A stretch of 64,000 bases of DNA from Mameliella sp. MMSF_3455 (GTDB lineage: Bacteria > Pseudomonadota > Alphaproteobacteria > Rhodobacterales > Rhodobacteraceae). Within the stretch, counting starts at the first letter, position 1; each line of letters begins with the position of its first letter. Position numbers and translations under genes: made by a program. Below are positions 37,731 to 57,528 of this stretch, piece by piece. The notes under the pieces were generated by a model that had not been told where the DNA came from, searched no databases, and was given only the letters and a program-made list of their open reading frames with translations. The stretch is from contig NZ_JASHJL010000010.1 of assembly GCF_030733205.1 (NCBI RefSeq), forward strand, positions 1 through 64,000. Reading direction: 5' to 3'.

Positions 37731-38162
37731 TCAGAGTACGCCGATCTCCGCCAGCGCCCCGGCAAGTTCGGGTGGGAGGGGGTCTTCCTCGGCCCGGTTT
37801 CCCGGCAGGTCGGGCGGGGCATCGGCGGCGGCAAGGTAGCGCCAACCCTGAAAGGCGCGCTTGGGTGCTGCCGCGGTGCGGGTGATTTTCGGGTCCAGCA
37901 CAAGGGCGCAACGATTGATCCCATCCGCACCGGTGACCGGGTCGAGCCGCAGGATACGCTGGCGACATTGGATCAGCCCCTTGATGACCCAGTAGATCGA
38001 GCCACCGTTCAGCACCTCTTGCCCGCGCCGGGGCCACATGCGGGTGACATGGCGGGGCAGACCGTCTTCGGTCTGGGCGCGTCGCATGCCCTGCCAGTCC
38101 ATCAGGCTGTCGACGCTCTCCGTGCCCGCGCTCAGTTTGATCAGGTGAGTTGTCTTGCCCAT
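37731..38162 (-). CDS. DUF1489 family protein
   Basis: The 143-residue alphaproteobacterial conserved protein has the family segments THLIKLSAGTES at the start, GGSIYWVIKGLIQCRQR in the middle and FQGWRYLAAADAPPDLP near the end. Function is unknown. Start set at MGKTTHL (38162). It is the last core-type gene before the accessory region. Confidence 0.88.
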   Translation of the reverse strand: MGKTTHLIKLSAGTESVDSLMDWQGMRRAQTEDGLPRHVTRMWPRRGQEVLNGGSIYWVIKGLIQCRQRILRLDPVTGADGINRCALVLDPKITRTAAAPKRAFQGWRYLAAADAPPDLPGNRAEEDPLPPELAGALAEIGVL

Positions 38163-39750: not shown

Positions 39751-41265
39751 GTGGATTTGTATCGCAAGGTGCGTCTGGCCTGTGCCGAGGGCATGAGTCA
39801 GCGAGAAGCGGCCCGGCATTTCGGGATATCTCGTGACAGCGTTCGGAAGATTTTGGCGTTTTCGGTCCCACCGGGCTATCGGCGGTCTGCACCGATCCGG
39901 CGGCCAAAGCTGGATGGGTTCACCGGGATCATCGACCAGTGGCTGTCGGAGGATCGGGAGCGACCGCGCAAGCAGCGGCATACCGCCAAGCGGATCTTCG
40001 AGCGGCTTCGCGACGAGCATGGTTTCGAGGGCGGCTACACCATCATCAAAGACTATGTTCGGGAGCACGGTCGGCGGCATCGGGAGATGTTCGTTCCGCT
40101 TGATCATGCACCGGGCCATGCCCAGGCCGATTTCGGCGAAGCGGTCGTGGTGATCGGCGGTGTCGAGCAGAAGGCCCACTTCCTCGCCCTGGATCTGCCG
40201 CACAGCGACGCTTGCTACGTGCGGGCATATCCGGCGGCGACGGCGGAGGCATGGATGGACGGGCATGTTCATGCCTTCGCGTTCTTCGGTGCCGTGCCGC
40301 TGTCGATCCTCTATGATAACGACCGGTGCCTTGTTGCGAAGATTGAGCCTGACGGGACACGCAGGCGCGCGAAGCTCTTCAGCGAGATGCTGTCCCACTA
40401 CGTGATCCGGGATCGATATGGGCGACCCGGCAAGGGGAACGATAAGGGGAGCGTAGAAGGGCTTGTCGGGTATTCCCGGCGCAACTTCATGGTGCCGATC
40501 CCGAACTTCCCGACCTGGGATGCCTTCAACGACTGGCTTGAGGAGCAGTGCCGGAAGCGACAATCAGACAAGCTGCGGGGGCACAACGAGACGATTGGCG
40601 AACGTTTCCAGCGCGATCTGGAGGCGATGGCGACGCTTCCTGCAACTTCCTTTGAAGCCTGTGACCAGACATCGGGCCGTGTCAGCTCGCTCGCGCTGGT
40701 GCGCTACAAGACCAACGACTATTCCGTGCCGGTCGCCTATGGCCACCGGGATGTCTGGATCCGCGCCATCATGCCAGAGGCATGTCTCCGACATGACGTC
40801 GACCGGGTGGTCATCGGCTGTGGCGGCGAGGTCATCGCACGGCATGTTCGCAGCTACGAGCGCGAGGACATGGTCTTCGACCCGGTCCACTACCAGCCGC
40901 TGATCGAGAAGAAGATAAACGCCTTCGAGCAGGCGGCACCACTGACCGGATGGGACCTTCCCAAGGCATTCACCACCCTTCAGAAGCTGATGGAGGCACG
41001 CATGATGAAAGCCGGACGGCGCGAGTACGTTCAAGTTCTGAGGCTGCAGGAAACCTTCGAGATGGAGGAGGTCCATGCTGCCGTGAAGACGGCCCTCCAG
41101 ATGGGGACCATCAGCTTCGACGCGGTGAAGAACCTGGTGCTGTGTCGGATCGAACAGCGGCCACCGAGGCTCGATCTGGATGTCTACCCGTTCCTGCCAC
41201 GGGCCAAGGTGGCGACGACATCTGCGGCCAGCTACATGTGCCTGACAACCGGTGGCGCGACATGA
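39751..41265 (+). CDS. istA: IS21 transposase IstA
   Basis: The 504-residue DDE transposase has an N-terminal helix-turn-helix (EGMSQREAARHFGISRDSVRK). The RNase H-like core has catalytic acidic residues around HAQADFGEA (first Asp), SILYDNDR (second) and GNDKGSVEG (Glu). A C-terminal beta-barrel region follows (YKTNDYSVPVAYGHRDVWI). GTG start with GGGAGG upstream. The length is normal for the family, and no frameshift is seen. Confidence 0.95.
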   Translation: MDLYRKVRLACAEGMSQREAARHFGISRDSVRKILAFSVPPGYRRSAPIRRPKLDGFTGIIDQWLSEDRERPRKQRHTAKRIFERLRDEHGFEGGYTIIKDYVREHGRRHREMFVPLDHAPGHAQADFGEAVVVIGGVEQKAHFLALDLPHSDACYVRAYPAATAEAWMDGHVHAFAFFGAVPLSILYDNDRCLVAKIEPDGTRRRAKLFSEMLSHYVIRDRYGRPGKGNDKGSVEGLVGYSRRNFMVPIPNFPTWDAFNDWLEEQCRKRQSDKLRGHNETIGERFQRDLEAMATLPATSFEACDQTSGRVSSLALVRYKTNDYSVPVAYGHRDVWIRAIMPEACLRHDVDRVVIGCGGEVIARHVRSYEREDMVFDPVHYQPLIEKKINAFEQAAPLTGWDLPKAFTTLQKLMEARMMKAGRREYVQVLRLQETFEMEEVHAAVKTALQMGTISFDAVKNLVLCRIEQRPPRLDLDVYPFLPRAKVATTSAASYMCLTTGGAT

Positions 41266-42017
41266 CGGAAGCGCCCCAGATCCTGCTGAACCATCAGCTC
41301 AAGAAGTTGAAGCTGCCGACTATCCTGAGGGAATACGACAAGCAGGCCAAGCTTTGCGCCGCCGAGGGCCGCGACCACGTCCAGTTCCTGGCCCGTCTGA
41401 TCGAACTGGAACTCATCGACCGGGAAAGGCGCATGATCGAACGGCGGATCAAGGCGGCGAAATTCCCAGCAAGCAAGAGCCTCGACAGCTTCGACTTCGC
41501 CGCAATCCCGTCGCTCAACAAGATGCAGGTGTTGGAACTGGCACGCTGTGAATGGATAGACCGCTGCGAGAACGTTATCGCTCTCGGCCCCAGCGGCACC
41601 GGCAAGACCCACGTGGCCCTCGGCCTCGGTCTGGCCGCTTGCCAGAAAGGGATGGCCGTTCGGTTTACATCCGCCGCCGCCATCGTTCACGAGCTGATGG
41701 AAGCGCGAGACGAGCGCCAGCTCCTGCGGCTTCAGAAGCAGATGGTGAAGCAGAAACTGCTGATCATCGACGAACTCGGCTTCTTGCCCCTCAGCAAGAC
41801 CGGTGCCGAGTTGTTGTTCGAACTGATCTCCCAGCGATACGAACGCGGCTCCATCCTGATAACTTCGAACCTGCCCTTCGACGAATGGACGGAGACCTTC
41901 GGAACAGAGCGCCTGACAGGCGCCTTGCTCGACCGCCTGACACACCATGTCAGCATTCTGGAGATGAATGGCGACAGCTATCGCCTCGCCCAGAGCAAGG
42001 CCCGGCAGAACTCCTGA
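41262..42017 (+). CDS. istB: IS21 helper ATPase IstB
   Basis: This 251-residue DnaC-like AAA+ ATPase selects and remodels target DNA for IstA. Walker A GPSGTGKTHVA, Walker B LLIIDELGFLP, sensor-type ITSNLPFDEW and the C-terminal RLTGALLDRLTHH are visible. It overlaps the istA stop by 4 bases. Confidence 0.96.
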   Translation: MTEAPQILLNHQLKKLKLPTILREYDKQAKLCAAEGRDHVQFLARLIELELIDRERRMIERRIKAAKFPASKSLDSFDFAAIPSLNKMQVLELARCEWIDRCENVIALGPSGTGKTHVALGLGLAACQKGMAVRFTSAAAIVHELMEARDERQLLRLQKQMVKQKLLIIDELGFLPLSKTGAELLFELISQRYERGSILITSNLPFDEWTETFGTERLTGALLDRLTHHVSILEMNGDSYRLAQSKARQNS

Positions 42018-42030
42018 ACCAAGACCGGAT

Positions 42031-42098
42031 TTGGTCCTTGCGGACCAAGGCGCCTTGGCAACCGCCAGCTATATGTGGAGCGCGTTTGCCAAGGCGCC
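42031..42098 (+). terminator. Two tandem hairpins after istB
   Basis: TTGGTCC-TTGC-GGACCAA (42031-42048) is immediately followed by a 13-bp perfect inverted repeat GGCGCCTTGGCAA / TTGCCAAGGCGCC (42049-42061 and 42086-42098). Neither has a T run. They may stop transcription out of the element or shield it from read-through. Confidence 0.5.
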
Positions 42099-42112
42099 GG
42101 TCACGCCCAGAC

Positions 42113-42156
42113 TGGCCGACTTTTGCTCCGCCCCGTGGCCGGATTTTGCGCCGCCG
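42113..42156 (-). repeat. Right multiple terminal repeats of IS21 element
   Basis: Read on the minus strand, CGGCGGCGCAAAATCCGGCC (42156-42137, then A at 42136) and an inner copy at 42134-42113 starting GGGGCGGAGCAAAAG and ending TCGGCCA match the left repeats in size and core. The pairs are 22 bases apart. Confidence 0.75.
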
Positions 42157-42162
42157 TTGACA

Positions 42163-42667
42163 TGTCCTGATCCCCAACTCGATCAACCGGATGCGGATCA
42201 AAGGCGCCGGAAGCCGCTTTGTCCACGGCGGAGCCACGTTGCAAGAAGCCGTCATCCCTGTTCTGCGGGTGGGCAAACGGCGTGAGGCGGATGTCGGCAA
42301 GGTCGAAGTCCAGATCATCGCGCCGAGCCGCAACCTGATTTCTTCGGGGCAGACATCTGTCGCTCTCTACCAAGCGCAACCCGTGTCCGAGAAACAGCAG
42401 CAGCGTGATCTCCTGGCCGGAATCTATGCCCAGGACGGCACCCTGATTTCCGACGAACACCAACTGGCCTTCGACTTCACATCGCAGAACCCTCGGGAAC
42501 GGGAACTGCCAATCACCTTCCTGCTCTCGCGCGAGGCGGACCGCTTCAACAATCAGGATGTCTTCCTGAAGCTGCGCGAGCGTGTCGGCAAGACCAGCCA
42601 TTTCGAGGATTACACGAGCCATCGCTTCCAGCTGCGCCGTGGGATCTCGACCGATTTCGATTTTTAA
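42163..42667 (+). pseudogene. pglZ: C-terminal remnant of BREX phosphatase-like protein PglZ
   Basis: The reading frame is open from the IS right end (VLIPNSINRMRIKGAGSRF...) to the TAA at 42667, about 167 codons. The FVHGGATLQEAVIPVL motif is the conserved C-terminal signature of PglZ, normally an 800-900 residue protein. The N-terminal alkaline-phosphatase-like domain and all upstream BREX genes are missing. An ATG at 42191 could in principle restart translation. The stop is 10 bases before brxL, as in intact BREX operons. Confidence 0.85.
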
Positions 42668-42677
42668 GGAGCGGGAC

Positions 42678-44750
42678 ATGAGCTCTCTCGATGACAAGAT
42701 CAACGAACACTTCGCCGGCTATGTCGTCCGCAAGGACCTGGTGAAAGCGGTCAAAGGCAATGCGATCGTCCCGACCTACGTTCTGGAATACCTTCTGGGC
42801 CAATATTGTGCGACCGACGACGAGGCCTCGATCCAGAGCGGCATCGAGACGGTGAAGGAGATCCTGCGCAAGCACTATGTCCATCGCAACGAAGCCGGCC
42901 TAATCCAGTCCACGATCAAGGAAAAGGGCCGATACAAGGTCATCGACCAGGTCAGTGTCACGCTGAACGAGAAGACAGACGGCTACGAGGCCATTTTCGA
43001 CAACCTCGGCATCAAGAAGGTGGCCGTCGACAGCGTGACGGTGAAAGCACACCCGAAGCTCCTGGTTACGGGTGTCTGGTGCATCGCCGACGTCCAATAT
43101 GAATTCTCCGAAGATGCGCGCACGTCCCCTTGGCGGCTGGAAACTATCAAGCCGATCCAGATCGCGAAGGTCGACTACGAAGGTTACAAGGAGGCTCGCG
43201 GGCAGTTCACGAAGGACGAATGGATCGACTTGCTCATGCAGTCGATCGGTTTCAATCCCGAAGCCTTCGGACGGCGCAGCAAGCTGCTGCAGCTAATGCG
43301 CCTGATCCCCTTCGTGGAGCGCAACTACAACATCATCGAGCTGGGCCCCAAAGGCACCGGCAAGTCGCACATCTATTCCGAGTTCTCGCCACACGGACAG
43401 CTGATCTCCGGTGGCGAAGTAACGATCCCGAAGCTCTTCGTGAACAACTCGAACGGGCGGATCGGTCTTGTCGGGTATTGGGACGTGGTGGCCTTCGACG
43501 AATTCGCCGGGCGCGAAAAAACGGCCAACAAGGCGCTCGTCGACATCATGAAAAACTACATGGCGAACAAGACGTTTTCGCGCGGGGTGAATCCCATGGG
43601 AGCCGAGGCGAGCTTTGCCTTCGTTGGCAATACCGACCACAATGTCCCCTTCATGCTCAAGAACAGCGACCTGTTCGAGGCTCTACCCCCGCAGTTCCAC
43701 GACTCCGCCTTCATCGACCGCCTGCACGCCTACCTGTCGGGCTGGGAGGTGGACGTGATCCGAGGCGAAATGTTCACGCGCGGCTATGGCTTCATCGTCG
43801 ACTACCTGGCCGAGATCCTGCGACACCTGCGGCAGGAGGACTTTTCCAACCGCCCTGATAAGCACTTCAGCATCAGCGAGAAGATTTCGACCCGGGACCG
43901 CGATGCCGTCTACAAGACGATGTCGGGCCTGCTGAAGGTTCTCTTTCCCGCCGGTGGTGAAAGCGCGGGCGATGTCGAGGAACTGCTGCAACTCGCGCTC
44001 GAAAGCCGGAAGCGGGTCAAGGATCAGCTGTTCCGGATCGACGCGACCTACCCCGAAGTCGACTTCTTCTACACCGGAGCCGATGGCCAGAAGCTGCGGG
44101 TCCAAACCGTCGAGGAACAGGAATTTCCCCAGTTCTATCACCGCAAGCCAGTCCGGGATCCCAAAGCGCAGTCTACAGATGGCCACGACACCGATGGGGA
44201 TGTGATCGAAGCCGACGCGGAAACGCAGGCACCTTCATCTGAAAGAGTGGCGGCCCAACCCAAGCTCGAGGAAGGCCATTTTACCTTCGCCGAGAACCGG
44301 AAGGGCATCAGCTTCGAGAAGCTCTTCGGGCCATACATGGATGGCGTCGCCCGGATCATTGTGACTGATCCTTACATTCGCAAGCCTTACCAAATCCGAA
44401 CCATGATGGAGTTCGTGGAAATGATCATCCGGCGCAAACCGCCCGAGGATCAGGTCTCAATTCATCTCGTGACCGGCCCCCACGACGGGGACATGCAAAA
44501 GCAAAGAGAGCTGCTCGACAGCATTACCGAAGCCTGCACCGGTTCGGGGGTCGATTTTACATGGGCCTTCGATACCTCTGGAACGGCACACGCACGAGAC
44601 ATCGTGACAGATACCGGCTGGAAAATCGTGCTGGATCGCGGTCTGGACATTTTCCAAGCTCCGATGCGTCGCGAAGGCTTCAACCTCGGCGATCGCCTAC
44701 AGGAACACCGCATGGTGAAGGCGTTCTATGTAACCTATGTCCGGCAATAG
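42678..44750 (+). CDS. brxL: BREX Lon-like protein BrxL
   Basis: The 690-residue AAA+ protein has an N-terminal domain (SSLDDKINEHFAGYVVRKDLV), then Walker A ELGPKGTGKSHIYSE near residue 224, and Walker B VVAFDEFAG. The Lon-like segment RGVNPMGAEASFAFVGNTDHN follows. After residue ~560 a C-terminal domain (SFEKLFGPYMDG...IRTMMEFVEMIIRRKP) resembles the MIT_C/phospholipase-like module found in one BrxL class. In BREX, BrxL assembles on DNA. It appears intact but orphaned from brxA, B, C and pglX. An AAGGAG ribosome binding site precedes the ATG. Confidence 0.92.
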   Translation: MSSLDDKINEHFAGYVVRKDLVKAVKGNAIVPTYVLEYLLGQYCATDDEASIQSGIETVKEILRKHYVHRNEAGLIQSTIKEKGRYKVIDQVSVTLNEKTDGYEAIFDNLGIKKVAVDSVTVKAHPKLLVTGVWCIADVQYEFSEDARTSPWRLETIKPIQIAKVDYEGYKEARGQFTKDEWIDLLMQSIGFNPEAFGRRSKLLQLMRLIPFVERNYNIIELGPKGTGKSHIYSEFSPHGQLISGGEVTIPKLFVNNSNGRIGLVGYWDVVAFDEFAGREKTANKALVDIMKNYMANKTFSRGVNPMGAEASFAFVGNTDHNVPFMLKNSDLFEALPPQFHDSAFIDRLHAYLSGWEVDVIRGEMFTRGYGFIVDYLAEILRHLRQEDFSNRPDKHFSISEKISTRDRDAVYKTMSGLLKVLFPAGGESAGDVEELLQLALESRKRVKDQLFRIDATYPEVDFFYTGADGQKLRVQTVEEQEFPQFYHRKPVRDPKAQSTDGHDTDGDVIEADAETQAPSSERVAAQPKLEEGHFTFAENRKGISFEKLFGPYMDGVARIIVTDPYIRKPYQIRTMMEFVEMIIRRKPPEDQVSIHLVTGPHDGDMQKQRELLDSITEACTGSGVDFTWAFDTSGTAHARDIVTDTGWKIVLDRGLDIFQAPMRREGFNLGDRLQEHRMVKAFYVTYVRQ

Positions 44751-45128: not shown

Positions 45129-45212
45129 GTGCCCACGATATATCTCGACACAAACGTTTTTATAGATGCTCAATCATCACGTTGTTGGCACTCTCCACTA
45201 TGCCTACTCTAA
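45129..45212 (+). pseudogene. N-terminal stump of a PIN-domain (VapC-like) protein
   Basis: GTG at 45129 opens a 27-codon frame reading PTIYLDTNVFIDA, the classical PIN-domain first strand with its catalytic Asp. After that, the sequence loses similarity and stops at 45212. A GGAG lies about 15 bases upstream of the GTG. It is best read as the start of a PIN gene cut by the insertion or deletion that brought in the adjacent locus. Confidence 0.6.
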
Positions 45213-45245
45213 ATTGAATCCGGTCCTTGAATTCTGGAACTACAG

Positions 45246-47459
45246 ATGCGTTTTGTCGAGAGAAGCAGTACCTCCACACCGAATGCCCTCGTCTCAGAAG
45301 ACGTGCGTCAGGCAGTTCGCGACGTCCATCGGTACCTGAACAGACCACAGGACGAACGTGGGCAGCGGCGCAGTCCATTTGAGGAAAGTCTCGTGTTCAA
45401 CGACGCTGTTCGAAAGGCGTTGGGAGGCCTATTCTTTGAAAAATGCGCCTACTGTGAGACTAAGGTTTCCCTCAGTGAGGCGGGGATCGATCACTTTCGC
45501 CCGATACGCGTTTCAGAAGAGAGACAGACCGATTATGGTCACTACGCCTGGCTGACATATGACTGGGAAAACCTCTACCTCGTGTGTCCGGCCTGCAACT
45601 CGCAAAAGGGTGCTCGTTTCCCCGTAGACGGCCAACGCGGCAGCCCCTTCGCGACGGTCAACGAGATGAGATTGTCCGAAAGGCCGGCGCTTCTCGACCC
45701 CTGCTACGACAACCCGCGCCTGCATATCCAACTCAGGCCGGACGGGTCCTACGTGCCGCGATCCGGGCGCGGACGTGCCACCATAGACTTATTCGACTTG
45801 AACCGTGATGATCTCGTCAGGGACCGTCATGAAGAAATCGAGCATCTGAACCGTGTGTTTCGAAACGGCGTAGACCGCTTAGAGTTGGAAGCGGCGATCT
45901 CGCAAGACGCACCATATTCCGGTGCGAAGGTTCAGTATGTAGCGTTGATCATCGAGGTCGTCACGGGACGCCGACCGAACTGGAGCAGGCATGGACCGGT
46001 GTTCGGTGGTGTCTTGGCCTCTATGCAGAACGTTGAGGCAATCACTCTCAACACAGCGATTGAACGGCTACTCAATAAAGAAGACAGCGCCGAGACGGCT
46101 TTCGTGCCACAGAGGTTCTCCGATCAACCCACGGAGCGGAGAGCCTTACGCGATGCTGATTTTACCGCAGAACCTGCGCGCCAAACCTTGATACGAGAAA
46201 TCAAAATTTCCAATTTCAAGGGCATCGACGCGTTAACGCTAAAGGTGCCCGCTCTGAGACCTGGGAAGGGTTCGTCCGGGGCGCTCATGTTGCTCGGTGA
46301 GAACGCTGTCGGGAAGACGACGGTCCTCGAAGCGATCGCCCTGTCGCTGCTGGGAGAATTGGACGCCGACGGTATGGTCCGGCCCGAGGATCTCTTGCGA
46401 CGGAAGGGGCGCGACCGTCAGGAGTTAATTGAGCCGGACATCGCAACCGTCGAGCTCAGTTTCTACGATCGGTCCAGCCCGGCAGTCTTGAGCATCGACC
46501 CTTTGCGTCGGCAGTTCGAAGGGGATCGGTCCGCGGGGGCCGTCGTCATCGCTTACGGTCCGAGACGATTTTCAGATGTCAGAACTAAATGGCATCACAA
46601 TCGATCCGCTCGTGTCGAGAGCTTGTTCCGGCCGGCCGTACCCTTGGCTGATCCTACTTCGTGGCTAAGAGACATCGCAAGAGACGACGAATTTCGGTTT
46701 AAGGCGGTCACGCGTGGTTTGCGTGAAATTCTGGCGTTGCGGGATGGTGACGAATTGGTTCTCGACGAGGCCATGGGGATTTGTGTCTCGGTGCGGGGCC
46801 ATCTCGAGCCGGTCAGTCGGCTGAGCGAAGGTTACCGATCACTTTTCGCCATGGCTGTCGACATAATGCGAGAACTCCTGCGCACGCAACCGGATCTGGA
46901 GGATGCGCGTGGCGTCGTCCTCATAGACGAAATTGAGACCCACCTTCACCCCCGCTGGAAGATGCGCGTCACAAGGGCGCTCCGCAAGGCCATGCCGAAG
47001 GTGACGTTCATAGCGACTACCCACGACCCGCTCTGCCTACGTGGCATGGAGCAAGGCGAGGTCGTCGTACTGGCCAAAGACAGAAACCAACAAATCTATC
47101 AACTGACGGACCTGCCCGACATCAGCGGCATGAGGGTCGAGCAGATTCTCACGTCCGACTACTTTGGGTTAAACAGCACGGCCGATCCGGAGACAGAAGC
47201 ACAGCTCACGGCCTATGTCGCTACGCTCTCACGTGCTCAGGCAGGTGACCAAGACGCCGAAGAACGCGCCACACGTCTGGGCGCGACACTTCGCGAAACG
47301 TTGGTACTCGGAGAGACTGCGGCGGACCAACTCGCCCAAGAGGCCCTCGATCGCTTCTTGGCAGAACGGCACGATCTTTCGTCCGTCGAACGGAGCGATG
47401 CTCGGCTGGAAGTGGTCGATGCCATGCTACGCGCTTTGCGACAGCCGTTGGAGGAGTAG
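45246..47459 (+). CDS. HNH nuclease-ABC/AAA ATPase fusion, Septu-like defence protein A
   Basis: The 737-residue protein has two parts. Residues 1-130 form an HNH nuclease domain of the PtuB type: KCAYCE, then IDHFRP, WENLYLVCPACNSQKG, giving paired CxxC zinc ligands and the catalytic DH. From ~315 an SMC/RecF-like ATPase follows: IREIKISNFKGI start, Walker A LGENAVGKTT (351-359), signature LSEGYRS (~527), Walker B VLIDEIETHLHP (~555), and H-loop TTHDP. A helical tail of about 110 residues ends it. PtuA and PtuB are normally separate; here they are fused, and a second HNH gene follows with its ATG touching the TAG of this one. Function in phage defence is inferred from the Septu family. Confidence 0.8.
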   Translation: MRFVERSSTSTPNALVSEDVRQAVRDVHRYLNRPQDERGQRRSPFEESLVFNDAVRKALGGLFFEKCAYCETKVSLSEAGIDHFRPIRVSEERQTDYGHYAWLTYDWENLYLVCPACNSQKGARFPVDGQRGSPFATVNEMRLSERPALLDPCYDNPRLHIQLRPDGSYVPRSGRGRATIDLFDLNRDDLVRDRHEEIEHLNRVFRNGVDRLELEAAISQDAPYSGAKVQYVALIIEVVTGRRPNWSRHGPVFGGVLASMQNVEAITLNTAIERLLNKEDSAETAFVPQRFSDQPTERRALRDADFTAEPARQTLIREIKISNFKGIDALTLKVPALRPGKGSSGALMLLGENAVGKTTVLEAIALSLLGELDADGMVRPEDLLRRKGRDRQELIEPDIATVELSFYDRSSPAVLSIDPLRRQFEGDRSAGAVVIAYGPRRFSDVRTKWHHNRSARVESLFRPAVPLADPTSWLRDIARDDEFRFKAVTRGLREILALRDGDELVLDEAMGICVSVRGHLEPVSRLSEGYRSLFAMAVDIMRELLRTQPDLEDARGVVLIDEIETHLHPRWKMRVTRALRKAMPKVTFIATTHDPLCLRGMEQGEVVVLAKDRNQQIYQLTDLPDISGMRVEQILTSDYFGLNSTADPETEAQLTAYVATLSRAQAGDQDAEERATRLGATLRETLVLGETAADQLAQEALDRFLAERHDLSSVERSDARLEVVDAMLRALRQPLEE

Positions 47460-48368
47460 ATGCGCTACGTGGACAGATCTCTGGTCGATGAGCCAGCAAG
47501 TCTGGCTGACGAAGACTCCGACGGCGCGCGCGAGAGCGGTCGAGCGGCAGCACACTATGCACAGGTTCCGGAACCCGAGAAGTCTTACAGCTTCAAAGCC
47601 TATAAGAATGACGACGTGAAAGACGCCTTGCGAGCCCTTTTTCACGGCAAATGCGCTTATTGCGAAATCCGATATGAGGGCAGTCAGCCCGTCGACGTTG
47701 AGCACTATCGTCCCAAAGGAGGGATCGAGGAATTTCCAGGACATCGTGGCTATTGGTGGCTGGCTGCGTCTTGGACGAACCTTTTGCCTTCTTGCACGGA
47801 TTGCAATCGTCGACGACGCCAAGTGTCTGCTGAGTACGGCATGTCTCTTGACGAACTGGAAGTGGCACACGCCAATCTTGACAATGCTGAGCCCGGTGGG
47901 AAACAGAATGCGTTCCCAACGTTTGATGACGTATGGGCCGAACCTAACGAGGATCCGGAACAACTCGAAAAACCGCTTCTTATCGACCCTACGAGAACGG
48001 ATCCAAGTCAGTTTTTTGTCTGGCCGAAAGCAGAAATCTCAGTCGTGCTGGCATCGCAGCAAGGTATGCAATCAGACTATCCTTGTGCAGAGACGTCGAT
48101 TGACATTTATGCTCTAAACAGGATTGGGCTTGTCCAGAGTCGCCTTGAGATGAGGCAGGACTTGGACCTTCACTTGCAACTTCTTCGGATGACTGCCGAA
48201 GACGCAATGGTCGCAGATGGCGAACAACGCGCGCAATTGATCACCCGTTTGACAGAACACATCCTCGCGCTGCGCAAACGGTATGAAGACCCAAAGCATG
48301 CGTTCTCGACTATGCTCAGCGCGCATCTCGACGAATTCGAAAATGAACTGACGCAACTCTTGTATTAG
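47460..48368 (+). CDS. HNH nuclease, PtuB-like, Septu-like defence protein B
   Basis: The 302-residue protein starts MRYVDRS, nearly the same as MRFVERS of the upstream fusion. It has the same nuclease pattern: GKCAYCE (~64), VEHYRPKGG (~80), WTNLLPSCTDCNRRR (~105-120). A C-terminal domain of ~150 residues follows, partly helical (LDLHLQLLRMTAEDA). Its ribosome binding site GGAGGAG lies inside the last codons of the upstream gene, so translation is coupled. It is related to the retron/Septu HNH family, often 200-300 residues. Confidence 0.82.
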   Translation: MRYVDRSLVDEPASLADEDSDGARESGRAAAHYAQVPEPEKSYSFKAYKNDDVKDALRALFHGKCAYCEIRYEGSQPVDVEHYRPKGGIEEFPGHRGYWWLAASWTNLLPSCTDCNRRRRQVSAEYGMSLDELEVAHANLDNAEPGGKQNAFPTFDDVWAEPNEDPEQLEKPLLIDPTRTDPSQFFVWPKAEISVVLASQQGMQSDYPCAETSIDIYALNRIGLVQSRLEMRQDLDLHLQLLRMTAEDAMVADGEQRAQLITRLTEHILALRKRYEDPKHAFSTMLSAHLDEFENELTQLLY

Positions 48369-48574
48369 ATGTAGGCGCCGCTTTGACCCTAATTTCTGAA
48401 CAGTTGCTTGAACTTCAAGTCCGTTTCGAAGTGTAGCCTTTATCCAAAGGCTGACGGTTAAGCTGCCTGAATGCCGCACATTGCATGAATGTCCGCAATG
48501 CGGATTGCGACCGCAGCACTCAGAGACCGTGCTCAAGGTCTGCTTAGGGCCGTCCGTGACGACGGCCCGGGTCT

Positions 48575-49207
48575 TCAGATTTCTACCGCCTCGGCGATCG
48601 CCAAAGCGTCTTCCAACTCGACGCCGAGGTATCGGACAGTGCTGTCCATCTTGGTGTGGCCGAGCAAGAGTTGAACGGCGCGCAGGTTGCCGGTTTTCCG
48701 GTAGATCTGCGCAACCTTCGTCCGTCGCATGGAATGGGTCCCATACGCGCTGGGTTCCAGCCCGATCGATTTAACCCAGTCTCGGACAAGGCGCGCGTAT
48801 TGCCGTGTCGATATATGAAGCCGTTCGTGAAATCGCCCCGGCCAAAGGAATTCGGAACCGATCATCAGCGGCTCGTCCATCCACCTCAGCAGCGATTTCC
48901 GTGTACCCTCAGTAATCTCAAATCGGACAGGTTTCTTAGTCTTGCTTTGAATGATCGACGCCCGCTCCTTTACCTGACCAGCGGCGAAGACATCAGCCAC
49001 CATCAGTTTGACCAGATCGCATCCCCGCAGCTTGCTATCGATGGCGAGGTTGAACAGAGCAAGGTCTCGGTGATTTTCCGCGATTTCCAGTCGAACGCGG
49101 ATTGCCCAAACATGTTTTGGCAACAGCGGGCGTTTCTGCCCCACTATGCGGCCTTTGTTCCAGGCAGGGCGGCGTGCGCAAATGGTGGGCAAATTTGGTG
49201 TTTGCAT
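48575..49207 (-). CDS. Short tyrosine recombinase
   Basis: The 210-residue protein is a tyrosine recombinase catalytic domain. Seen are Arg in SKLRGCDLVKL, a Lys in IQSKTKKPVRFEIT, THSMRRTK (His-x-x-Arg), LLGHTKMDSTVRYLG with the His and the nucleophilic Tyr. The usual N-terminal core-binding domain is missing; only WNKGRIVGQKRPLL precedes the catalytic part. This compact form recurs widely in proteobacterial mobile regions. It lies downstream of the Septu-like locus, on the opposite strand, and may have mobilised it. Confidence 0.88.
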   Translation of the reverse strand: MQTPNLPTICARRPAWNKGRIVGQKRPLLPKHVWAIRVRLEIAENHRDLALFNLAIDSKLRGCDLVKLMVADVFAAGQVKERASIIQSKTKKPVRFEITEGTRKSLLRWMDEPLMIGSEFLWPGRFHERLHISTRQYARLVRDWVKSIGLEPSAYGTHSMRRTKVAQIYRKTGNLRAVQLLLGHTKMDSTVRYLGVELEDALAIAEAVEI

Positions 49208-50812: not shown

Positions 50813-51835
50813 TCAGTTCAGGCTTTGTTTTCGCTGTGACCGGGCCAATGTGTGCGACGGCAACTCGCCAAATCGGTCGCGATAGCGCCCGGCCAGAGCG
50901 CCAAAATTGACGAACCCCCAGTCCGCAGCGATTTCGCCGACGGTCCTGTCGCCCGAGGCTGCCAGCAAGTCCGCACGCAGCCCGTCAAGCCGGCGCGCGG
51001 AGAGAAACGCCCTCGGCGACACCCCGCGGAAGCGCGTGAAGCCGCCAGACAGGGTCCTTGCCGAAACACCGACGCGTCGCGCCACGTCCCCGACGCTGGG
51101 GGCCTGCCGTGCCTCGGTCTCGAAAATCTCTTCGGCCTGCCGCACATATCGCGGCGCCGCCGCACGCGCACCGTCATCAAGTCGCACACCAGCCTCAGCC
51201 GCCCATTGACGCAGAAGCTCAAGGCAAATGATTTCCTCCAGATGTCGTCCCAGCGGACCGTCAGCAGCAAGGGACCCGGGTTCACTCACGCTCTGTGCTG
51301 CATAGCCCAGCAGCTTCAGCCAAGCCGAATTCGCCCCCCCGAACTTGATCCGGCGGGTCCAGAGCCGGTCATCGGGGACGAAACCGAACCAACGTTCAGC
51401 GGTCTCCTCCATCACTTGATGCGCGATGGTGAGGTTGAGCTGCATGTGGTCGGGATCGCCTTCCAGCCAGTAGTCGGTTCGGGAACAATCGACGACGAAA
51501 CTGTCGCCCGCCCCGGTTTGAACCGGCGCGCCTAGGCTTTGGTGATTCAGGGCGCCGCGTAGGGTGTTGAGCACGAGGATGTTGCCGGCCTCGGGATCAA
51601 ACTGGTCGAGGTAAATACCGGTGCCATAGGAAAATCGCGTCATCGTCACGCGTCCGGCTCTGGCGGATATCATCGTGGCGTCCGGCCTCGATAACCGCTC
51701 AAGCGGTTGCACGCGATAGGGCATATAGACCGACCGGCAGAACTCCTGAACCTCGTCCCAGTCCGCGGACCGCGTTGGGCCTGCATGCTGGATCTGTGCG
51801 CCATGCACATCCCTGATCAAAGCTTCTTCCAACAT
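50813..51835 (-). CDS. AraC-family transcriptional regulator
   Basis: The 340-residue protein has an N-terminal AraC-ligand-type domain (FSYGTGIYLDQFDPEAGN, then GAGDSFVVDCSRTDYW) and a C-terminal double helix-turn-helix. The first helix-turn-helix is VGDVARRVGVSARTLSGGFTRF and the second is TVGEIAADWGFVNFGALAGRYRDRFGELP. Start 51835 is chosen over 51862 because AGGGAGG sits 8 bases before it. Probably controls the adjacent serine hydrolase. Confidence 0.88.
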   Translation of the reverse strand: MLEEALIRDVHGAQIQHAGPTRSADWDEVQEFCRSVYMPYRVQPLERLSRPDATMISARAGRVTMTRFSYGTGIYLDQFDPEAGNILVLNTLRGALNHQSLGAPVQTGAGDSFVVDCSRTDYWLEGDPDHMQLNLTIAHQVMEETAERWFGFVPDDRLWTRRIKFGGANSAWLKLLGYAAQSVSEPGSLAADGPLGRHLEEIICLELLRQWAAEAGVRLDDGARAAAPRYVRQAEEIFETEARQAPSVGDVARRVGVSARTLSGGFTRFRGVSPRAFLSARRLDGLRADLLAASGDRTVGEIAADWGFVNFGALAGRYRDRFGELPSHTLARSQRKQSLN

Positions 51836-53133
51836 CTGCAACGCCTCCCTACGATGCATCAATCGGATCAGTATATCACAAAGCCCCCGGTTGGTCGGGA
51901 TCTGGACGCATGGACTTTGGTCGCAAACACCGACTTCGTTCGGGGCGGAGCCGCAGCGCGGCGACCAGGCGGCTTGTCATTGACTTGTCCGACCTGTGGC
52001 TTCTCAGGCGTGATCCCTTTCTGTCTCACTTGCGACCCAGCCCACCACACCAGTAGGCCGGTTCGTCCAAACGTTTCTCATTTGGCGGCAGCGAATGACA
52101 GCAAGCTCCGCGCAGTGTGAATTCGACAGCCGCCCGATTTAGCCGGCGCAGCGAATGTCCGGACCCCCAGGCCACAACGCAGCGGAGGAGACCGGTGGTG
52201 AACGGCAACTTTGGGCCGGGCGCGTTCCTGAGTTGGTCCCGAGATAACACACGGAGGCAAACCGCCCGCCGGGGGGGGGCGGTGGGAGTCCGTAGGCAAG
52301 CGCCTATCGCGGCACTGTGTGCGCCGCCGATCCCGGGTCGTCACGCCCCGGGGGCGCCATCCGGCGTGGTCCTCTTGTTGGAATTTCCGTCTCCCTCTAT
52401 CAGCGTCGGTGCGTTTCCTCTGCTCATGAAAACGAGCGCCACCGCGCTCGTGGTCGTCTCCCGTCGGTGGCCGGGACTTCGAAGACCGCCAGGGACGGAC
52501 TTCTTTGACAGACGGAATGGGACTTCGTCTCGGATGCACGTCGTCGCTTCCGCTCACGCGGATGCCATCACCTTCGGGGAGTGATCAGATCCCCGCAGCG
52601 CGCTGCGTTTTCGGTGATGCACAACGGTTTCTTGCGAGCGTCCAGTCGGACTGGATCTTGTGCGGCCTCCTTTCTCTTCGCTCGACCGTGCAGTCCTCGG
52701 CGGCATCCTCATGCCCGTCCGTCATAAGGAAGAAATGGAACGACAGGATCCGGACCAAAACACTTCCGTGGTGGGAAATCGAAAAAGTTGGATCTTGGAT
52801 CCCTCTCGCGGCTCGCTCGGTTTCAGCCTGCACCCAGCGAGCCGTCCGACGGGGACGAGGACGGCGTCTTTAGATGGGGCGCGCCGCGGTTCTCTGCCAG
52901 AGTAGTCGATCGGCGTCACGGGGCCGATCAACCGCTCTGACCCGAGGAAATCGCCCGCGGTGTAGAAAAGGGCGGAAGTTTTTTCTTCGTGCTGCGGGCG
53001 GTTGGCCAATCTTCCAATCAAGAGACGGGAACAATGGTCAATCGACCCGCAGGAGCAACGAGAGGAATCCCAGGAAACGGACAGGCTTGATGCTGCCAGG
53101 ACCGGCAGACGCGCAACAAACAGGAGGACCACC
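51836..53133. other. 1.3-kb stretch without a convincing gene
   Basis: Several overlapping short frames exist on both strands, but none has a ribosome binding site with a recognisable protein. It contains runs such as a block of nine or more G at about 52269 and mixed GC-rich inverted motifs. It could be decayed coding sequence or hold regulatory RNA; neither can be shown here. Confidence 0.4.
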
Positions 53134-55026: not shown

Positions 55027-57528
55027 CTAGCCACACTTCGAATGCCCACAAGAGGCACAGGTCATGCAGCCCTCTACCATGCGCATGTCGTATTGCCCAC
55101 AATTGGGGCAAGCCGGACCGCGGGGTTGGTCCAGGTTTACCACTTGGGCGGTCGGGTCGCTTTTCAGGCCCATGCCTTCGCCTTCGAGGAAGCCTGTCGC
55201 GATCATGTGGCGCTCGATGACGCCGCCGATCGCTGCGAGGATCGAAGGGATGTACTTGCCCTGAACCCAGGCGCCGCCGCGCGGGTCGAAGACGGCCTTC
55301 AGTTCCTCGACGACAAAGCTTACGTCGCCACCGCGGCGGAAGACAGCAGAGATCATTCGCGTCAGCGCCACGGTCCAGGCGAAATGCTCCATGTTCTTCG
55401 AGTTGATGAAGACCTCGAAGGGCCGCCGGCGGCCGCCGACGATGATATCGTTGATCGTCAGGTAGATGGCATGCTCACTGTCGGGCCATTTCAGCTTGTA
55501 GGTCGCGCCCTCAAGCGTCTGGGGCCGGTCCAGAGGTTCGGACATGTAAACGACATCGCCGTGGGGTTGCAGAGGTTCGGCATCGGAGGTTGCGGCAACT
55601 TCGGGCGATGTTTCATTGGTCAAGAGAGCGGTAATATCGACATTAAGTGCATTGGCGATCTTTGTCGCGTTTACCAGCGAAGGTTTTTTGTTGTTCTTTA
55701 GCATCTGCTGGACAAAATTCCGCCCGAGACCGGCTTCCTCTGATAGCTTTGCTAGGCTCATGCCTTTGGCTTCCGCTAGCGAGCGAATGCGAGAAGAAAA
55801 CTCCTCCCAAGACACCTCATCAGGTTTCACTTCTGCCACGCTCAGAACACTTCCCGTCACCGCGTTCGGACGATAAGTGGTGCAGCCCTTGCAGCCTGTC
55901 TCGTAGGCTTGCAGGTAGACATCCTTGAAGTCCTCGAAGGAAATGTCCTCGGGGCAGTTGATGGTCTTGGAGATCGACGAGTCGACCCATTTCTGCGCCG
56001 CCGCCTGCATGCGGACATGGTCCAGTGGCGCCAGCGTCTGAGCATTCACGAAATATTCGGGCAGGGCGGCATCAGTGCCGAAGGTCTCACGGTACATCTG
56101 TACCGCGTAGTCGACCACCTCTTCCTCGGTCCGGGTCCCGTCCTTTTGCAGGACCTTGCGGGTGTAGGCATAGGCAAAGACCGGCTCGATCCCCGACGAG
56201 ACGTTCCCGGCATAGAGCGAGATCGTCCCCGTGGGTGCAATCGAGGTGACCAGGGCGTTGCGGATGCCGTGTTCGCGAATGGCGCTGCGCACGTCCTCGT
56301 CCATGCCCAGCATCGTGCCGCTGTCCAGGTAAGCCTCGGCGTCAAAGAGCGGAAAGGCGCCTTTTTCCTTCGCCAATTGCACCGAAGCCAGGTAGGCGGC
56401 GCGGGCGATCCGGTGCAACCAGCACTCGGTCTGACGCGCCGCTTCCTCGGATCCGTAACGCAGCCGTACCATCAGCAGGGCATCGGCAAGGCCGGTCACG
56501 CCCAGCCCGATACGGCGCTTGTTCAGGGCCTCCTGGCGCTGTTCTTCCAGCGGAAAGCGCGAGGCATCGACCACGTTGTCCATCATCCTGACGGCGGTGG
56601 CGACCAGCTCGTCCAGCGCTTCTTCGTCGAGGTGTGCATCGCCGGTGAAGGGGGCGTTCACAAGCCGGGCCAGGTTGACCGAGCCCAGCAGGCAGGCGCC
56701 GTAGGGGGGCAGGGGCTGTTCGCCGCACGGGTTCGTGGCGGCAATCGTTTCGCAGTAGCTGAGGTTGTTGGCCTGGTTGATCCGGTCGATGAAGATCACG
56801 CCGGGCTCGGCGTAATCATACGTGGCGCGCATGATCCGGTTCCACAGGTCGCGCGCAGGCAGCGTGTGATAGACCACCCCGTCAAAGACCAGGTCCCAGG
56901 GGCCGTCCGCCTTGACCGCCTCCATGAAGGCATCCGTGACCAGGACCGAGAGGTTGAACATGCGCAGGCGCGCGCTGTCGGCCTTCGCGCCGATGAAATC
57001 CTCGATGTCCGGGTGATCGCAGCGCATGGTTGCCATCATCGCCCCGCGGCGCGAACCTGCGGACATGATCGTTCGGCACATGGCGTCCCAGACGTCCATG
57101 AACGACAGCGGCCCGGAGGCGTCCGCCGCCACGCCTGCCACGGGCGCGCCCTTGGGCCGGATGGTCGAGAAATCGTAACCGATCCCGCCGCCCTGCTGCA
57201 TGGTCAGCGCCGCTTCGCGCAGCTGGTCGAAAATGCCGCCCATGTTGTCGGGGATGGTGCCCATGACGAAACAGTTGAACAGGGTCACGCTGCGGTCGGT
57301 GCCGGCGCCTGCGGTGATCCGGCCCGCGGGCAGGTACTTGAAGTCCTCAAGCGCTTCGTAGAACCGCTCTTCCCAGTGGGCCGGGTCCTTTTCGACCGTG
57401 GCAAGGGCCCTGGCGATGCGGCGCCAGCTGTCCTCGACGCTGAGGTCAAGCGGCGTGCCGTCCGCCTGTTTCAGGCGGTATTTCATGTCCCAGATCTGTT
57501 CGGCGATGGGGGCGGCAAAGCGGGTCAT
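55027..57528 (-). CDS. nrdJ: B12-dependent class II ribonucleotide reductase NrdJ with an internal XRE domain
   Basis: The 833-residue adenosylcobalamin-dependent enzyme reduces ribonucleotides. Seen are the N-terminal Cys in TLFNCFVMGTIPD, catalytic NPCGEQPLPPYGACLLGS (Cys and Glu), APTGTISLYAGNVSSG, and a C-terminal zinc-ribbon-like CPNCGQ ... CASCGHSKC. Between core and C-terminal region (about residues 570-640, DNA 55613-55812) is an in-frame helix-turn-helix: LAKLSEEAGLGRNFVQQML followed by KIANALNVDI, a Cro/C1-type XRE domain. It looks less GC-rich than the rest. Such an insertion is not part of the usual NrdJ architecture I know. Start is MTRFAAP, after GAGGGA. Confidence 0.93.
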   Translation of the reverse strand: MTRFAAPIAEQIWDMKYRLKQADGTPLDLSVEDSWRRIARALATVEKDPAHWEERFYEALEDFKYLPAGRITAGAGTDRSVTLFNCFVMGTIPDNMGGIFDQLREAALTMQQGGGIGYDFSTIRPKGAPVAGVAADASGPLSFMDVWDAMCRTIMSAGSRRGAMMATMRCDHPDIEDFIGAKADSARLRMFNLSVLVTDAFMEAVKADGPWDLVFDGVVYHTLPARDLWNRIMRATYDYAEPGVIFIDRINQANNLSYCETIAATNPCGEQPLPPYGACLLGSVNLARLVNAPFTGDAHLDEEALDELVATAVRMMDNVVDASRFPLEEQRQEALNKRRIGLGVTGLADALLMVRLRYGSEEAARQTECWLHRIARAAYLASVQLAKEKGAFPLFDAEAYLDSGTMLGMDEDVRSAIREHGIRNALVTSIAPTGTISLYAGNVSSGIEPVFAYAYTRKVLQKDGTRTEEEVVDYAVQMYRETFGTDAALPEYFVNAQTLAPLDHVRMQAAAQKWVDSSISKTINCPEDISFEDFKDVYLQAYETGCKGCTTYRPNAVTGSVLSVAEVKPDEVSWEEFSSRIRSLAEAKGMSLAKLSEEAGLGRNFVQQMLKNNKKPSLVNATKIANALNVDITALLTNETSPEVAATSDAEPLQPHGDVVYMSEPLDRPQTLEGATYKLKWPDSEHAIYLTINDIIVGGRRRPFEVFINSKNMEHFAWTVALTRMISAVFRRGGDVSFVVEELKAVFDPRGGAWVQGKYIPSILAAIGGVIERHMIATGFLEGEGMGLKSDPTAQVVNLDQPRGPACPNCGQYDMRMVEGCMTCASCGHSKCG

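Follow-up and report, generated by a model that had tools for sequence, protein, structure and literature searches.

A recurrent Septu variant with two HNH domains, in which the ATPase-fused domain appears to have lost its catalytic histidine repeatedly

We analysed a 64,000-nucleotide stretch of DNA from Mameliella sp. MMSF_3455 (contig NZ_JASHJL010000010.1, positions 1 to 64,000; hereafter the window). It carries a two-gene cassette that, judged by its sequence, is a recurrent variant of the Septu defence system with a duplicated HNH domain, known already to detection profiles. The first gene encodes a PtuA-like ATP-binding cassette (ABC) ATPase fused to an N-terminal PtuB-like HNH domain, and the second encodes a separate PtuB-like HNH protein. 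The new point is an apparent asymmetry between the two HNH domains across related loci: the separate HNH is conserved, whereas the fused HNH has repeatedly lost its catalytic histidine. We favour, with moderate confidence, an asymmetric model in which the separate HNH of a Septu-type operon cuts and the fused HNH serves mainly for docking, scaffolding or restraint. The features of the cassette are as follows.

45246..47459, + strand: fusion gene, PtuA-like ABC ATPase with N-terminal PtuB-like HNH, 737 amino acids (aa) (open reading frame, PDLC00288, Pfam, Foldseek)
45246..45875, + strand: fused HNH (PtuB-like) domain, residues 1-210 (PDLC00339; profile match to 9vh1_F)
45489-45494 and 45597-45599, + strand: putative catalytic letters D82-H83 and N118, respectively, of the fused HNH
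46191..47312, + strand: ABC ATPase domain, about residues 316-689 (AAA_21 at 348-596; invariant motif residues)
47460..48368, + strand: separate PtuB-like HNH protein, putative nuclease, 302 aa (open reading frame; PDLC00328)
47700-47705 and 47805-47807, + strand: letters E81-H82 and N116, respectively, of the separate HNH
45221..48488, + strand: two-gene unit in common with Pseudophaeobacter leonis (blastn, 87.8% DNA identity)

The open reading frames (ORFs) at 45246-47459 and 47460-48368 bore out the preliminary description of the window, which had proposed an HNH-ATPase fusion followed by a second HNH gene. The stop codon of the fusion gene (TAG, 47457-47459) abuts the ATG of the separate HNH gene at 47460, and the proteins open with MRFVERS and MRYVDRS, both as that description had it. 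It had also assigned the same signature to both HNH domains, which holds for KCAYCE only; the fused domain goes on with DHFRP and CPACNSQK, and the separate one reads EHYRP and CTDCNRRR. The ATPase part contains GENAVGKT, LSEG, VLIDE and a histidine, which we take to be the Walker A, signature, Walker B and H-loop elements, respectively, and G351, G356, K357, S527, G529, D561, E562 and H593 were invariant in all 35 fusion proteins aligned. The distance between the two genes ranged from −14 to +4 bp in the 31 loci measured, with start codons that were partly of our own choosing. Promoter and terminator scans gave results no better than shuffled sequence.

Profile searches supported the view that the cassette is Septu-like. 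The PADLOC profile PDLC00288 (PtuA1) matched residues 1-734 of the fusion protein (E 1.9e-241), PDLC00339 (PtuB1) matched its residues 4-210 (E 2.3e-40), and PDLC00328 (PtuB1) matched residues 1-299 of the 302 in the separate HNH (E 2e-91). Three PtuA1 profiles of 726-773 positions (PDLC00288, PDLC00291 and PDLC00292) matched the fusion protein nearly end to end, and all three matched each of the 24 fusion proteins scanned. Pfam AAA_21 (348-596) and HNH were both above cut-off in the fusion protein; the separate HNH scored below cut-off against Pfam HNH (15.1 of 21.4 bits). The NCBIfam profiles of retron Ec78 were far below cut-off (PtuA, 111 of 500 bits; PtuB, 48.6 of 150 bits). A profile of the family matched both PtuA and PtuB chains of Ec78, and its positions 44-232 matched the solved Ec78 HNH protein 9vh1_F (E 1.6e-10). 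In Foldseek searches, the model of the fusion protein (mean predicted local distance difference test score, pLDDT, 66) had PtuA chains of E. coli Septu and of retrons as its best matches, and the poor model of the separate HNH (pLDDT 55) found no PDB match at E ≤ 0.001.

The pairing proposed from the window recurred in other genomes. We assembled 41 loci (L numbers below). Besides the window, they comprise 3 found in a draw of 398 genomes from the phylum, 10 from named genomes, 1 viral contig from IMG/VR, 20 from plasmids and 6 from further genome draws. The plasmid loci are 20 of 30 records, since H4, H5, H15, H16, H20-H23, H26 and H30 were left out as apparent near-copies or loci of the same type. 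All loci were gathered with the fusion or the fusion alignment as the query, never with the second HNH. The separate HNH gene lay directly downstream of the fusion in 41 of 41. The fusion gene itself was interrupted or truncated in five (L006, L014, L032, L033 and L037), and in L014 the separate HNH gene was interrupted too. The fusion is rare: the phylum draw had it in 4 of its 398 genomes and the family draw in 6 of 198, two other draws had it in 2 of 297 and 1 of 369, and the genus in 1 of 6. Each count includes the genome of the window or the one on which the draw was centred; the five other genomes of the genus gave no match. When PDLC00288 was run on a class draw of 385 genomes, it returned only the window and L018, a locus with a canonical PtuB. 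A protein search of annotated phage genomes (E ≤ 1e-20) yielded no relative of the fusion, and IMG/VR yielded one.

The fused and separate HNH domains were aligned jointly, and 38 of each were counted. The HNH counts omit L032, whose reading frame lacks the N-terminal domain, L006, where the interruption falls within the HNH domain, and L015, which nearly duplicates L008. L014, L033 and L037 enter as N-terminal reading frames alone; the separate HNH proteins of L006, L014 and L015 stand outside the 38, the L006 copy having all four active-site letters. The separate HNH had its E, H, N and N (E81, H82, N107 and N116, intact in the window) in 38 of 38, together with the lysine of the RPK motif. 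The fused HNH likewise kept its zinc cysteines (Cys67, Cys70, Cys114 and Cys117), Pro86 and Asn109 in every case, including a domain encoded on a Bacillota plasmid, and Arg85 in 37. Its catalytic His83, however, was kept in only 11 of 38, and was replaced by arginine in 14, glutamine in 8, leucine in 3, and proline and asparagine in one each. Asn118 was kept in 11 as well, and Asp or Glu at position 82 occurred together with His83 and Asn118 in three domains only, those of the window, L008 and L016. The difference persisted when the loci were reduced to 29 with ATPase identity below 70%; the histidine was then present in 9 of 29 fused domains and 29 of 29 separate ones. Among control PtuB-type proteins (TIGR02646), the histidine was found in 27 of 27 ORFs (23 by pattern and 4 by eye) from 30 loci, although three loci gave no ORF and were dropped, and the ranking of ORFs partly by a match to [DE]H favours finding the histidine.

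We then placed the state of His83 on a tree of the ATPase alone, made of 35 rows without L014, L033, L037 and L032. At least five changes of state were required, against 9.7 on average when the labels were shuffled, so that the state is clustered by descent, yet was altered more than once. Should histidine be the ancestral state, which both the separate HNH and canonical PtuB suggest, five losses suffice by our reading of this tree. These would fall on a seven-row group with L023 and L041, on L020, on L010, on four Lysobacter rows, and on an eleven-row group with L005 and L046. The seven-row group holds three long branches (L026, L031 and L036), and no two of the four Lysobacter rows have the same replacement (P, N, Q and R).

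A tree of the HNH domains was built from 38 fused, 38 separate and 11 canonical rows (10 of the 27 control proteins and L018). It set the fused and separate rows apart from the canonical ones with a support of 86 in the Shimodaira-Hasegawa-like approximate likelihood ratio test (SH-aLRT), and placed the separate rows on one side of a branch (89). When the fused rows were forced into one clade, the tree was not rejected by the approximately unbiased test (p-AU 0.64), and its likelihood was slightly higher. A single duplication giving rise to the fused and separate HNH lineages fits these data, short of proof. The distances of the ATPase, the fused HNH and the separate HNH were correlated with one another (r 0.73, 0.63 and 0.51; 29 loci), and none of 2000 permutations reached as high a value in each case.

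Several points weigh against the asymmetric model. The ATPase tree has 7 of its 32 inner branches below 80, and three of the rows that lost His83 are long-branched. The free HNH tree splits the fused rows into 4 and 34, and the grouping of fused with separate rows has moderate support (86, from a quick search with no bootstrap). Asn118 is a weak marker of activity: several canonical control PtuB proteins have no CxxCN stretch, and the match to the solved Ec78 PtuB stops at the first cysteine of the second pair, ahead of that position. Since Asn109 is universal among the fused domains counted, and N91, perhaps its counterpart, is essential in another PtuB, some fused domains may have partial function. 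Finally, the copy in the window itself shows no decay of the fused site, with D82, H83, N109 and N118 all intact, so the fused site of this copy may still cut. The preliminary description had proposed one HNH as a nuclease and the other as a specificity or regulatory partner. The unequal conservation of the two across the family agrees with this division, but for the window copy it is not assertable from sequence, because the letters of the fused domain are intact.

The same letters could mean that this copy is a Septu with two nucleases, one delivered by the ATPase and the second acting in trans. L008 and L016 would be of the same kind, although these two loci are close to each other. We regard this as unlikely, though it is the alternative to be taken most seriously, since the full set of letters is present in only those three of the 38 fused domains. 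Among relatives that can be read, the nearest, L007, carries Asp at position 118, and the closest of all, L006, is frameshifted at codon 83, which may be an error of its draft assembly. The window's fused domain is also without the RPK lysine (I87), which every separate HNH counted has and which L008 and L016 retain.

Another reading makes the fused domain a leftover. PADLOC assigns both proteins to Septu type I (24 of 24 fusion proteins scanned), and the five interrupted or truncated fusion genes could be expected if the fused domain were a role-less remnant of gene fusion in an ordinary Septu type I. A passive remnant would drift, however, and we consider this explanation very improbable. 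The four cysteines, Pro86 and Asn109 are invariant, even in the Bacillota plasmid. The ratio of nonsynonymous to synonymous differences (pN/pS) was compared within five pairs of relatives and between the window and the pieces of L006. In the fused domain it was near the ATPase value and lower than in the linker, although pN/pS is a rough guide only because synonymous rates were saturated in most pairs. In one pair, L009 and L012, the separate HNH was loose (pN/pS 0.70). From its nearness to the ATPase value, the fused domain seems to be kept under continued constraint, and not drifting.

As a further alternative, the fused HNH fold could be mainly a recognition module, binding the nucleic acid that is targeted (or else a phage product) and handing it over to the separate nuclease. 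Retention of the zinc cysteines, Arg85, Pro86 and Asn109 while the histidine is replaced, chiefly by arginine, could suit a nuclease fold that only binds. By a rough count, however, the median net charge of the fused domains is about −1, not above that of the separate protein (+1), and we think this role improbable.

Taken together, the sequences show co-occurrence of the two genes, shared ancestry of their HNH domains, conservation of the separate site, repeated loss of the fused site, and constraint on the fused domain. The asymmetry of the active sites suggests a retired nuclease that is retained as a working part. In the asymmetric model, a PtuB gene would have been duplicated once; one copy would have been joined to the ATPase at its N-terminal end and the other would have stayed as the downstream gene, the two moving as a pair from then on. 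Like PtuA, the ATPase module probably forms oligomers and senses infection, and the separate HNH would be the nuclease that must work, cutting under the control of the ATPase. The fused HNH, keeping its zinc fold, would be mainly a built-in subunit that docks, scaffolds or restrains the active HNH, the substrate, or both, with its catalysis dispensable and lost several times. The two HNH domains may be in direct contact, with release or activation upon infection, and the substrate may be DNA or tRNA, both of which have been reported for Septu and retron PtuAB. The unit is probably anti-phage. The stronger proposal is of a lineage whose ATPase-fused duplicate has become a pseudo-nuclease and holds or gates the neighbouring nuclease; the window copy, its active-site letters still in place, would be an early stage. 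This proposal seems to us evenly balanced. If it is true, the family may display the stages of a change from nuclease to regulator. To our knowledge, how PtuA controls PtuB is not settled, and reported PtuAB targets differ between systems. Repeated loss of the histidine under constraint on the fold provides natural mutants in which what the HNH domain does structurally can be told apart from its cutting role.

Published work on Septu bears on this model. In one E. coli Septu, the Walker residues of PtuA and H75 and N91 of PtuB are required for defence (PMC13096335), and in Providencia Septu a change of the PtuB histidine (H53) abolishes defence (PMC12935923). The target is tRNA-Tyr for Eco7 and EcB88 (PMC11555353, PMC13096335), and DNA for another Septu, as cited in PMC11555353. 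The ratio of PtuA to PtuB is 2:1 and 4:2 in the PDB titles of retron complexes, and 6:2 for Septu in a review table (PMC12948488).

The cassette had been put forward as the best candidate for a new subtype of defence system. It is not a wholly new system, because PADLOC already covers the two proteins with full-length profiles under Septu type I, and the two-gene architecture thus lies inside Septu type I as its detection profiles define it. Like the E. coli Septu complex (PDB 8eea), the cassette sets an ABC-type ATPase gene ahead of one for an HNH protein within a single operon, and its ATPase matches PtuA in sequence as well as by Foldseek. The ATPase shows the Walker A, Walker B, signature and H-loop elements, the PtuB encoded beside it has its catalytic residues intact, and PADLOC places the two as PtuA1 and PtuB1. 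It departs from the type in one respect. In the experimentally studied systems of Septu type I, as the available literature passages describe them, PtuB is the single HNH protein and PtuA is not known to have an HNH of its own, whereas residues 1-210 of the fusion protein form a PtuB-like domain added to the ATPase. The PtuA1 entries of PADLOC are labelled only 'AAA ATPase domain', with no mention, in the entries as displayed, of an HNH domain or of HNH decay. Such profiles, used to find defence systems, list a distinct two-HNH architecture under an ordinary name. In the portions available of the PADLOC paper (PMC8565338), Septu type II (retron) is defined and an HNH-ATPase fusion is not mentioned. 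A search of open-licence PMC full texts found no description of the fusion with a second HNH among the matches listed, as seen in part; other literature could hold one.

Two other kinds of system share parts with the cassette. Retron type I-A (Ec78/Eco7 and Ec83; Septu type II) has PtuA and PtuB effectors in common with it, but adds a reverse transcriptase and multicopy single-stranded DNA (msDNA) or non-coding RNA (ncRNA). A search of the whole genome for the reverse transcriptase domain RVT_1 gave no match, nor did Rfam in the window at gathering scores. Pairs of an OLD-ABC ATPase and an HNH nuclease beside bacteriophage exclusion (BREX) loci have been described as possible backup effectors, in the portion available of that report (Nucleic Acids Res 2026, PMC12839542). 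These too are ATPase/HNH pairs, and the cassette differs from them by the HNH-ATPase fusion and the second HNH. By the searches made, the locus is neither a complete BREX system nor a retron.

The surroundings of the cassette contain the following features.

39751-44750: IS21-type transposase and IstB genes, then brxL, upstream of the cassette
42582-44750: brxL, nearly end-to-end profile match, with a phospholipase-D-like C-terminal domain
48575-49207, − strand: tyrosine recombinase piece, 210 aa

The flanks had been called a BREX remnant and a recombinase. Both are present, but brxL is nearly full-length, and the recombinase is only a piece. brxL was the sole BREX match among the ORFs scanned against PADLOC, and since no PglZ match was found in the whole genome, it is an orphan. 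In the blastn comparison with Pseudophaeobacter leonis, the bases immediately outside 45221-48488 failed to align. A ribonucleotide reductase gene aligned as well, in two pieces within 55030-57528 of the window, some kilobases further on in both genomes, as did a short stretch at 37963-38126 in the opposite orientation; the unit therefore seems to lie in the same chromosomal neighbourhood in both. brxL and the recombinase were considered as parts of the cassette and rejected: around it, homology to the nearest relative covers the two genes only, so they are neighbours.

Some minor observations concern the genes nearby. Just 5′ of the fusion gene, a frame of 27 codons, VPTIYLDTNVFIDAQ... followed by a stop (45129-45212, + strand), is perhaps a remnant; it seems to resemble the start of a PIN-domain toxin gene. 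On the other side, a beta-lactamase-family gene (PF00144; 49523-50791, − strand) stands beside an AraC-type regulator gene (50813-51862, − strand). In relatives, two similar genes whose products start with MKQAIVI(L/M)HGMGEQ lie upstream of the fusion in L042 (3814-5262) and L014 (4585-5808), with no Pfam match. Genes annotated as reverse transcriptases are found downstream of the pair, on the opposite strand, in Rhizobium WSM1325 and in Priestia megaterium plasmids (L025, 7319-8190; L031, 5847-6860). The clade in which Arg or Leu stands in place of His83 often has a lipase-type gene adjoining the pair, which raises the question of a third component. Patatin-like genes lie 12-33 bp downstream of the pair in L033, L034, L035 and L038 (plasmid), two of them checked against Pfam; L043 has an upstream patatin match below cut-off, and L024 a Tle1-like gene on the opposite strand.

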